A stretch of DNA of 64,000 nt from Actinokineospora inagensis DSM 44258 (GCF_000482865.1 NZ_AXWW01000038.1:1-64000), one strand, 5' to 3'; shown: positions 41,846 to 44,733, counted from the stretch's first letter. The notes: generated from the letters alone by a model not told the origin. A program made the numbers and translations.

Positions 41846-42535
41846 ATGCGGGAGTGGGCGGTGCTCGGGCGCTCTCCGGACGCCCGGTTGCCGACGTCGG
41901 CTCGGGTTACCGTTGCCGTCCTCGGTCTGGTTCCCCTGCTGGGTCTCGGTTTGTGGGCGGTGCTGCCGCTCGGGTCCGCGCCGTCCGCAGGCCGGCCGGT
42001 GCCGGTCGAGGTGACGTCAACCACCGAAACCACCGGATCCACTGACACCGCCGGATCCACCGAAACCACCGCGCCGTCTTCCACCGAGAGCCAAGCCGAC
42101 TTCGTCACCGAGTTGGACAGCCTGCTGCACCGCACCCACGACGCCCGCGATCAGGTCAAGGCGGCCGTGCAGGACGCGGCGGCCTGCGGTTCCGACCTCG
42201 GGGGCGACGCCGACCGGGTCCGAGCAGCAGCGGCCGAGCGTGACCGACTGGCGGATGCGGCGTCCACAGTGGACGCCAACCAGGTCACCGGCGGGGACGA
42301 GATGCGCGGCAACCTCGTCTCCCTGCTCCGAACCTCGGCCAACGCGGACCGCGAGTACGCCGCCTGGATCGACGACCTGCGGGTGCAGTGCACACAACTG
42401 GCCACCAACCAGCACTTGTCGGCGGCGACCCAGTTGAGCGCGAGCGCGACCAAGGCGAAGCAGGTGTTCGTCGCCGACTGGAACGGGATCGCCGCCGCGC
42501 GGGGGCTGACCACCTGGCAGGAGGGTGATCTGTGA
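41846..42535 (+). CDS. Signal-anchored protein with extracytoplasmic helical domain, unknown
   Basis: 229 aa. One membrane helix (about 21-43), a Thr/Ser/Glu linker (55-82) encoded by imperfect ACCGAAACCACC-type repeats, then an Ala-rich helical domain with two cysteines (near 112 and 178). GGAGG lies 8 nt before the ATG; the frame is open to 41756. I recognise no family. It overlaps the next gene by 4 bp and heads a three-gene unit. Confidence 0.65.
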   Translation: MREWAVLGRSPDARLPTSARVTVAVLGLVPLLGLGLWAVLPLGSAPSAGRPVPVEVTSTTETTGSTDTAGSTETTAPSSTESQADFVTELDSLLHRTHDARDQVKAAVQDAAACGSDLGGDADRVRAAAAERDRLADAASTVDANQVTGGDEMRGNLVSLLRTSANADREYAAWIDDLRVQCTQLATNQHLSAATQLSASATKAKQVFVADWNGIAAARGLTTWQEGDL

Positions 42536-44037
42536 TCGAAACGGACCTCGTGGTGACCCGGTTGTTGTGCGCGGGTGCGCACCTGGACAGCGCGTACTGC
42601 GGTGAGGTGTTGACCGAGTTGCTCGACCAGCGGCACCGGCGGGTCGCCCCGGCGTTCGGGTACGACACGGTCGCGGTGCTCGCGCACGCGTTGGAGTCGC
42701 GGCGCCGTCGTCGGCTACGGGCCCTGGCGTTGGTCGCGTGCGTCGCACCGCTGTTCCTCGCGTTCACCGACACCGACCGCTCGACGATCTGGGTGTGTGT
42801 GGCGTTGTGGTTGGCGTGGCTCGCCGTGTTCGTCGAACGCCTCGTTCGCACGCACACGTTGATGACCAGTCTGCCGCGCGGTGGCCCGATCTACCTCCGT
42901 CCGCACAAGGCGTTGCAGGCCCGCGCTGAGGACATCTCCCGGCAGCAGCACCTGGATTCGGTGTATTACAGCGGTCCCGTGCCGTTCGTCGGGGCGGGGA
43001 CGCTGTCGCGGAGTTGGTCGTTCGCCATCGTGCTGCGCGGCGCGGACGGCGAGCCCGAGCGGTTCACGGCGGACGAGCTGGTCGACGACGTGTGCGCGGA
43101 GATGACCGCCATCCTCAAGGACCTGGTGGACGAGGACCGCCGCGTCGGCACCGTGCACATCGCCCGCCGCCGCTACGCCACCCGCCTCCTCCCCCACGAC
43201 ACCGAGGAGACGGACGCCGAGCTCGCCCGCGACGGCTACGGCAGCGCCCGCTCGTACGCGACCGTCCAGGTCGGTACTTGGGACAACGAACTGGTCACGT
43301 CGATCTTCGTCGGTTTCGACGTCCGCGCCGACACGCTGTACACGGAGCTGCACAGCTACGTCCTGCACCCGGTCCGCGCCGGCTTCCACGAGGTCGACCG
43401 GTTGCCGGAGCGACTCGGGGTGTGGGCGGTGTTGCTGATCGCCGTGCGGGCACCGCTTTCCGCGGTCGCGGACATCGCTCGGGGGCTGGTCGGGTTCGCG
43501 CACACCGTGCTGCCGGAGCGGCCCAAGACCGGAGTCTTCGCGACCTCGCTCGCCGCCGTCGGGTCGCTGTTCGTCCTGTGGTCCAGCCTCGCGGATGTCC
43601 GGTGGGCGATCGGGGTCGCCGTGGGTTTGTGGCTGCTGCCCGCCGCCGTCGCCGCGGGTCGCCGGTTGACCGCCCGCCGCACCGCGGAACGCGCCGCCCG
43701 CCGCAAACGCGACCGCGCCAACTCCGTGGGTGCCCGGGGGTTGAAGGTCATCGACTTCGGTGCCCGCGCGGGTGTCCGAGCGCTCGGCGCGGACACCCGC
43801 CCGCACAACTTCTTCCAGCAGGTCGACCAGGAGAAGTACACGAAGATCATCGAGCGCCGGGTCACCGACGTGATCCACGACTTCCTGCGCGGCAAGCGGG
43901 TCGACCTGTCGGAGTTCGACAACCGCAGGCAGACCGTCCTGAACTACGGCGTGCTGAACATGGGCAGCGGCCAGGTGCTCAACACGGGCGCCATGGCCGT
44001 CGGCACCACCGCCACGGCGACGAGGAAGGGATCATGA
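42532..44037 (+). CDS. Polytopic membrane protein with C-terminal Asn/Gly-rich motif, unknown
   Basis: 501 aa. Two membrane helices near 62-100, a soluble domain (about 115-285), two or three more helices (about 295-320 and 338-380), a basic stretch, a short helical region with FLRGKRVDLSEF near 450, and a terminal segment NYGVLNMGSGQVLNTGAMAV at 471-490 followed by GTTATA. That segment recurs in part in the 66-aa protein encoded next. No named domain is visible. GTGA overlap upstream, ATGA overlap downstream. Confidence 0.7.
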   Translation: MIETDLVVTRLLCAGAHLDSAYCGEVLTELLDQRHRRVAPAFGYDTVAVLAHALESRRRRRLRALALVACVAPLFLAFTDTDRSTIWVCVALWLAWLAVFVERLVRTHTLMTSLPRGGPIYLRPHKALQARAEDISRQQHLDSVYYSGPVPFVGAGTLSRSWSFAIVLRGADGEPERFTADELVDDVCAEMTAILKDLVDEDRRVGTVHIARRRYATRLLPHDTEETDAELARDGYGSARSYATVQVGTWDNELVTSIFVGFDVRADTLYTELHSYVLHPVRAGFHEVDRLPERLGVWAVLLIAVRAPLSAVADIARGLVGFAHTVLPERPKTGVFATSLAAVGSLFVLWSSLADVRWAIGVAVGLWLLPAAVAAGRRLTARRTAERAARRKRDRANSVGARGLKVIDFGARAGVRALGADTRPHNFFQQVDQEKYTKIIERRVTDVIHDFLRGKRVDLSEFDNRRQTVLNYGVLNMGSGQVLNTGAMAVGTTATATRKGS

Positions 44038-44234
44038 CCAATCACGGGATCCAGGCGGACGGCAACGCCTGCATCGTCAACAACGGCGCGATGGCGGTGG
44101 GTTCGGCGACGGCGAACTACGCGGCCGACGTGACCGGTTCGGTCATCCAGGCGGGCACCCTGGCCGTCGAACCCATCCAGGAGCCACAGTCACCCGACGA
44201 CACAACGGTTACGTGCCCGCCCGCCAGCGAGTGA
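44034..44234 (+). CDS. 66-aa protein with NNGAMAVG and SVIQAGTL motifs
   Basis: Begins MTNHGIQADGNACIVNNGAM and continues AVGSATANYAADV, then TGSVIQAGTLAVE at 34-46. Residues 17-27 (NGAMAVGSATA) match the C-terminus of the upstream 501-aa protein. V-I-Q-A-G resembles the core of RHIM-like amyloid signalling motifs described in bacteria; that is a resemblance by eye only. GGAAGGG precedes the ATG, which overlaps the previous stop. The 3-prime end overlaps the convergent gene by 26 bp. Confidence 0.65.
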   Translation: MTNHGIQADGNACIVNNGAMAVGSATANYAADVTGSVIQAGTLAVEPIQEPQSPDDTTVTCPPASE

Positions 44235-44733
44235 AGGTGTCGATCAAGCCGATCACCTGATCGACGACGACCTTGGCGCTGACCCGGACCTCTTCCAACT
44301 CCAGGTCCCGATCGACCAACGCCGCCGCGCGCCCTTCGCCACCGCGCCAACGGCTGTGCGCGCGCCGCTCCAACGACACGGCGCGGCGCAGTTGGGAGAG
44401 TGGACGCTGGCTGGCGCGGACGAGGTCGCGGCGGATGGGTGCCAGCGCCACGAGGAAGTGGTGGGCGGGGGTGCCGACGCCGAGCCGGGTCATCTCCTGG
44501 GCTTCCCGGGTGGGGTCGGCGAAGTCTTCGTCCATGGTGAAGGCGGTGGCGACGCGGGTGAGGGCGTCGGCGGCGGTGCCGCCCGCGTCGAGGGCGGCGA
44601 TCGCGGTTTCCCACGCGTCGACGCCCGAACGTAAACGGGTCAGGAAGGCGGCGGGCGCGGGGTCGCCGCGCAGGGGGCCGCGCACCTGGTCCAGCGCCTC
44701 GGTCAGCGCGGCCAGGGACAACTCGGCGGGCAT
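44209..44733 (-). CDS. Hypothetical helical protein convergent with the 66-aa gene
   Basis: 174 aa, soluble, mostly helical, rich in Ala, Arg and Leu; no motif recognised. PAHHFLVALAPIRRDLVRAS near residue 89 suggests helix pairs. A weak GGAGG-type site precedes ATG 44733. Its last 26 bp overlap the end of the 66-aa gene on the other strand, so the two may interfere. Confidence 0.55.
   Translation of the reverse strand: MPAELSLAALTEALDQVRGPLRGDPAPAAFLTRLRSGVDAWETAIAALDAGGTAADALTRVATAFTMDEDFADPTREAQEMTRLGVGTPAHHFLVALAPIRRDLVRASQRPLSQLRRAVSLERRAHSRWRGGEGRAAALVDRDLELEEVRVSAKVVVDQVIGLIDTFTRWRAGT

Follow-up and report, generated by a model that had tools for sequence, protein, structure and literature searches.

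Matched C- and N-terminal motifs in a two-gene family of filamentous bacteria point to a candidate NLR-independent amyloid-type signalling pair

Two overlapping genes of Actinokineospora inagensis DSM 44258, which code for the membrane protein P0002 and its small neighbour P0004, carry matching motifs at the C-terminus of the first and the N-terminus of the second protein. On balance, we favour the view that the two belong to a two-gene signalling system that is widespread in filamentous bacteria, here with a reduced partner, and that this system represents an NLR-independent pair of the amyloid type. Members of the P0002 family are called A in the following, and the partners encoded next to them are called B.

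Results and Discussion

The gene cluster

The window (the whole stretch of 64,000 nucleotides that was analysed) had been described in a first-pass annotation as containing an unrecognised cluster of three overlapping genes with membrane proteins. The coordinates of P0001, P0002 and P0004 were confirmed (Table 1). All three genes are co-directional with overlaps of 4 nt at each of the two junctions, and profile searches with the three proteins gave no significant match to Pfam, NCBIfam or PADLOC. The description of P0002 as polytopic was refined by hydropathy analysis to about five hydrophobic segments (residues 62-80, 86-104, 295-313, 335-353 and 358-376), and the region from about 295 to 376 is much shorter in 17 other aligned members.

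Table 1. Genes of the cluster and motifs of the P0002/P0004 pair (positions in the window).
Feature	Coordinates	Strand	Description
P0001	41846..42535	+	229 aa; predicted TM residues 21-39, Thr/Ser-rich linker, helical domain; optional third component
P0002	42532..44037	+	501 aa membrane protein, GTG start (homologues, AlphaFold, hydropathy)
P0004	44034..44234	+	66 aa partner; motif only, no effector domain
C-terminal motif of P0002	43942..44022	+	residues 471-497, NYGVLNMGSGQVLNTGAMAVGTTATAT (pair matching; pLDDT <50 for most of it)
N-terminal matching motif of P0004	44040..44117	+	residues 3-28, NHGIQADGNACIVNNGAMAVGSATAN (tail/partner alignment)
Second short motif of P0004, SVIQAGTL	44139..44162	+	residues 36-43; RHIM-like V/I-Q-x-G tetrad (from sequence)

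P0001 is an occasional neighbour of the pair, an optional third member and not a constant part. At six other loci (L098:3599-4516, L289:7143-8297, L282, L096, L100 and L095) a P0001 relative lies beside the A/B genes, mostly in convergent orientation right after B and once in divergent orientation ahead of A. Several of these relatives have an N-terminal zinc ribbon, and they may be a third component. A search for P0001 in the genomes of 40 relatives found nothing. P0003 (44209-44733, minus strand), a 174-aa helical protein, is encoded convergently with P0004 and overlaps its end by 26 nt; as no relative occurs in any fetched locus, it was omitted as a system component.

The motif shared by P0002 and P0004

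A motif shared between the neighbouring proteins had been noticed at residues 484-496 of P0002 (NTGAMAVGTTATA) and 16-28 of P0004 (NNGAMAVGSATAN), together with SVIQAGTL in the 66-aa protein. All three are present at these positions, and the shared motif proved to be longer: residues 471-496 of P0002 align with residues 3-27 of P0004 with a score of 56 (13 identities in about 25 positions). A chance likeness is ruled out, as none of 20,000 shuffles of P0004 reached this score (mean 22.7, sd 4.3, maximum 49) and the best unrelated stretch among 2264 pieces of the window scored 42. The sequence GAMAVG is encoded at only three sites in the genome, in P0002, in P0004 and in one unrelated gene for a GH3-like enzyme. 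The latter, which we take from its sequence to be a GH3 N-acetylhexosaminidase-like enzyme, was considered as an extra component and dismissed as a coincidence. When P0004 was used as a search query, the sole significant E-value was that of P0004 itself.

Distribution of the A family

With P0002 alone as query against the genome contigs nothing was found, a result that is probably due to the divergence of P0002 within the family. The first search gave an A-family match in 15 of 61 genomes, its own included. A profile built from 18 members detected the family in 112 of 346 genomes of the same taxonomic family (23 of 46 genera) and in 56 of 346 genomes of a class sample. Within the genus, the profile matched 8 of 16 genomes. 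This patchy occurrence is the one observation that backs the first-pass view of an accessory insertion next to an ABC exporter; that an ABC transporter adjoins the cluster was confirmed. A plasmid origin was also considered and rejected, there being just two distant matches, both on very large replicons.

Named records with the A family come from Lentzea, Micromonospora, Streptomyces, Kitasatospora, Saccharopolyspora, Kribbella, Nocardia, Kutzneria and Amycolatopsis, and also from the filamentous cyanobacteria Tolypothrix and Brasilonema. They were retrieved with a closer alignment, as that of 42 A members is too diverse to yield search words. The P0002 family is without a Pfam or NCBIfam model: the 42 members scanned against Pfam gave single weak matches and no family covering the protein, and among the 56 members scanned against NCBIfam a few gave weak matches. 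The same genome codes for a diverged paralogue of P0002 on another contig (G000:C23). This second A/B pair (L031:8370-10289 and L016:689-1015) carries a motif of its own, and its B protein is full-length.

Motifs match within pairs across the family

Partners were selected without use of the motif, as codon-biased genes starting between -30 and +110 nt from A. Such a credible downstream partner exists for 152 of the 166 distinct A members with enough downstream sequence, and in 75 of these pairs the overlap between A and B is exactly 4 nt. The last 70 aa of each A protein were then aligned locally with the first 70 aa of its partner. Own pairs scored 66.8 (n=152), compared to 29.4 for permuted pairs (sd 0.9, maximum 33.3). 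After filtering at 40% identity, 38 pairs remained, with 67.9 for own and 30.5 for permuted pairs (sd 1.7); in 27 of these the own partner came out on top. Some of the automatically picked partners (for example L154, L156, L166, L171, L021 and L087) resemble normal neighbouring genes or spurious ORFs, so that the permutation test is conservative.

The motifs are also insulated from each other where several pairs occur in one genome: own pairs scored 66.7 (n=37) and cross pairs between paralogues 28.2 (n=40). For P0002/P0004 and the C23 pair, the own scores are 56 and 50 and the cross scores 40 and 35. Between clades the motifs are wholly unlike, and within a pair both copies change together. 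This is illustrated by L133 (INTGANTGSMDGANV in the A tail, INTGTNSGSMSGANI at the B N-terminus), L108 (GGTNDFTNTTFGDQAQVQNHG and GGTNSFTNTTFGDQAQVQNHG), L137 (APIVQSGRNDG and APIVQAGRNDG) and L099 (STFAIGTHARA and STFAIGSHAHA). Matching was found as well in the separately fetched named records, among them that of the cyanobacterium Tolypothrix (L278; SGGSFQATNVSSGTNTKAI and TGGHFWADNVASGNNTMAI).

Homologues with the motif in one partner only had been named beforehand as evidence that would speak against a paired function. Such cases were looked for, and what emerged, apart from the matched pairs, is about a dozen orphan tails; 14 of 166 A members have no credible adjacent B. Intact motif tails of this kind occur in L150, L160, L169, L139 and L153, which may use a partner encoded elsewhere. 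In some partners (L192:4644-5171 and L105:923-1462) two successive motif copies precede the helical domain, an arrangement that is HET-S-like.

Domains of the B proteins and the reduced partner P0004

The commonest B domain is DUF5955 (PF19380), which was matched by 37 of the 52 small partners scanned. Other partners carry PNP_UDP_1 (L015, L101, L108, L117, L179, L183, L184, L207, L216, L217 and L218), TIR_2 (L202), SEFIR (L158 and L167) or EAD1 (L113, L118 and L188), and the PADLOC matches on B proteins are SEFIR and PN-superfamily effectors. Prokaryotic conflict systems are known to contain most of these domains (PMC7159879). Since DUF5955 has no known function, the label of effector for B is owed to the minority with enzyme domains; no paper naming DUF5955 was found in the literature outside subscription journals. 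The partners L127:4686-5363 and L128:3302-3967 share a conserved domain that starts with LGFV[FV]DIVG and has no Pfam match, possibly an uncharacterised enzyme. A nucleotide cyclase was considered for these two partners and dropped, L127 having no PDB sequence match either.

B proteins usually have 104-137 aa (mostly DUF5955) or are longer. P0004, in contrast to the typical partner, matches neither DUF5955 nor any other output domain in the profile scan, and with its mere 66 aa it may be a minimal or a decaying version. One reading is that of a decaying or decoy copy which has lost its output domain, the work being done by the intact C23 pair. For this locus we regard such a history as a real possibility, though clearly less likely than not, and it is compatible with the preferred reading of the family as a signalling system. 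P0004 is the shortest of all 152 partners, and the paralogous B protein on C23 (109 aa) has the C-terminal helical part. However, the P0004 gene is intact and codon-biased, it overlaps P0002 by 4 nt, its motif is kept at the protein level although the codons have diverged, and the two pairs of this genome score higher with their own than with each other's partner.

Motifs lie outside the folded domains

The AlphaFold model of P0002 (mean pLDDT 81, pTM 0.81) has a helical N-terminus, a TM hairpin (about 62-104), an alpha/beta domain (143-290), C-terminal helices (427-472) and an unstructured tail (474-501), where the pLDDT is almost wholly below 50. In the model of a typical partner (L237), an unstructured motif (residues 1-35) is followed by a four-helix bundle with pLDDT >90. 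The motif being simply a piece of a globular domain had been listed as a further way to refute the first-pass proposal. In the models, both the tail of P0002 and the motif of the typical partner lie outside the well-predicted domains, with pLDDT <50 for most of their length. The C-terminal part of P0002 contains 26 Lys/Arg and 12 acidic residues and, by the positive-inside rule, the tail is predicted to be cytoplasmic.

Fold comparison gave weak matches for the alpha/beta domain of A (START/Bet v 1 helix-grip, best Z 6.0, rmsd 4.1, 124 residues aligned; best Foldseek E 0.006). Those of B (Avd, designed bundles, Tsi6) had Z up to 9.6, a range common for four-helix bundles. Both the START-like and the generic-bundle matches are too weak to assign a function to A or B.

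In descriptive counts from partly related sequences, Asn (5.8-fold), Gln (2.6) and Gly (2.1) are over-represented in A tails, while Leu and the aromatic and acidic residues are under-represented. The pattern [VIL]QxG occurs in 57 of 211 A tails and about 1% of control 50-mers, likewise a descriptive figure for partly related sequences. The core of RHIM is I/V-Q-V/I/L/C-G, and profiles detect such short motifs poorly. VIQAG in P0004 resembles this core but has no Pfam RHIM match, and none of the known amyloid-motif Pfam families, RHIM included, gave a match.

The motifs could also serve for docking of like to like without amyloid, the tails pairing or making a finite beta-roll in a stable A/B complex and not a templated fibre. 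Binding alone would suffice for pairing specificity, and the P0002 tail is weakly similar to the YadA head repeats, which form a beta-roll (E 0.046, below the cut-off). The Asn/Gln/Gly composition, the RHIM-like tetrads and the layout, however, are closer to signalling amyloids than to ordinary docking peptides, and we consider docking of this kind unlikely, at roughly one chance in four.

The direction of signalling might be the reverse, with B sensing or relaying and A acting as a membrane executioner (a pore or permeabiliser) that is switched on when B templates the A tail. In published systems the C-terminal motif is on the membrane-acting effector (Bell, HeLo) and the N-terminal motif on the receptor (PMC7889193), and A has several hydrophobic segments. 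On the other hand, TIR, SEFIR and PNP on B are typical outputs, and the large size of A and its folded alpha/beta domain set it apart from the small pore-forming Bell domain. A point against sensing or relaying by B is that most B proteins consist of just the motif and a small bundle. We rate reverse polarity as slightly less likely again than docking.

Codon usage bears on the origin of the likeness. P0002 and P0004 use the same codon at 5 of 12 identical degenerate residues (6.0 expected), which is about chance, so that their likeness is not a recent DNA copy. Over 76 pairs, 678 of 1111 identical degenerate residues have the same codon with 602 expected from codon usage, which argues that most of the likeness stems from selection at the protein level; a few pairs (L108, 23/25 codons; L016, 10/11) point to recent copying of DNA. 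In Lentzea flava, A and B share a single reading frame of 660 aa, fused at the motif common to both (L223:4890-6872), which we take for a natural fusion, with an assembly or deletion artefact as the alternative. That the motifs are a functionless by-product of gene duplication, of fission or of gene conversion at the junction of A and B, as the few codon-identical pairs and the one fusion could suggest, is largely refuted and highly improbable, since the share of identical codons exceeds chance by just a modest margin, amino acids match across highly diverged motif types, and the matching persists at 40% redundancy.

A model for the A/B pair

In the model that we propose, A is a membrane protein that has its alpha/beta domain in the cytoplasm and ends in an unstructured tail rich in Asn, Gly and Gln. 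B would combine the matching N-terminal motif with an interchangeable output: a DUF5955 helical bundle, a PNP nucleosidase, TIR, SEFIR or an EAD1 adaptor. A would sense a stimulus at the membrane, or act as a scaffold, and cluster; the clustered tails would stack to form a seed of the cross-beta or beta-solenoid type, and this would template the matching N-terminus of B. The output domains would become concentrated and activated by proximity, with growth arrest or cell death as the probable outcome, as has been proposed for NLR-linked amyloid signalosomes, here without an NLR. P0004 would have lost its output, or never had one, and could be a scaffold, a link via its second motif VIQAG, or a remnant.

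The likeness to bacterial amyloid signalling pairs or actinomycete conflict systems, which had been suggested from the window itself, is supported by the matched pairs and by the position of the motifs outside folded domains. The fit to a conflict system follows from the presence of TIR, SEFIR, PNP_UDP_1 and EAD1 on partners.

Comparison with known systems

In BASS/Bell-NLR signalosomes, adjacent or overlapping genes of filamentous bacteria code for two proteins, of which one carries the motif C-terminally and the other N-terminally (Dyrka et al. 2020, as presented in PMC7889193 and PMC8086366). A/B pairs likewise have adjacent or overlapping genes, matching Asn/Gly/Gln-rich terminal motifs of many families and sometimes an attached TIR domain, and the A family, like the BASS motifs (PMC7889193), is spread in filamentous, multicellular bacteria. 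In contrast, A is a large membrane protein in place of Bell, set apart by size and predicted fold, and the N-terminal motif is on DUF5955, PNP, TIR, SEFIR or EAD1 proteins; the likeness was judged from layout and composition. An NLR (NB-ARC/NACHT plus repeats) is absent from P0002 and P0004, and the scanned partners of homologues carry the above five domains instead. The genome has 18 NB-ARC matches, none of which is on contig C33 or C23. The A/B system would thus work like a BASS signalosome, but no NLR was seen on either side of the pair.

With fungal HET-S/NWD2, sigma, PP and RHIM, the A/B pairs have in common a short, presumably templating motif in sensor and effector, with V/I-Q-x-G tetrads in about a quarter of the A tails. 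They differ in having no sequence family match and no HeLo or kinase domains.

In EAD conflict systems, the same domain in adjacent proteins joins a regulator to interchangeable effectors, e.g. TIR or PNPase (Kaur et al. 2020, PMC7159879). EAD1 itself occurs on a few B proteins, whereas none of 42 scanned A proteins has an EAD. The shared element of A and B is a short disordered motif and not a folded EAD, and no VMAP, MoxR, vWA or GTPase was seen as partner.

Significance

A review from 2021 asks whether NLR-independent bacterial pathways use signalling amyloids (PMC7889193). No such pair was found in the literature covered, which lay outside subscription journals and the primary BASS paper. 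The A/B family offers more than 150 candidate pairs for testing, with specificity controls built in (matched and mismatched motifs, paralogues of the same genome) and enzymatic readouts (TIR, PNP), and it provides a context for DUF5955 and for an unnamed membrane family. More tentatively, at just under even odds in our judgement, the family may represent a large undescribed class in which the prion-like tail of a membrane receptor is the direct template for interchangeable immune effectors (DUF5955, PNP, TIR, SEFIR, EAD1), with diversified, pair-insulated motifs that allow several circuits side by side in one cell. If this is true, prion-like templating would be a general way in which filamentous bacteria wire sensors in the membrane to immune effectors.
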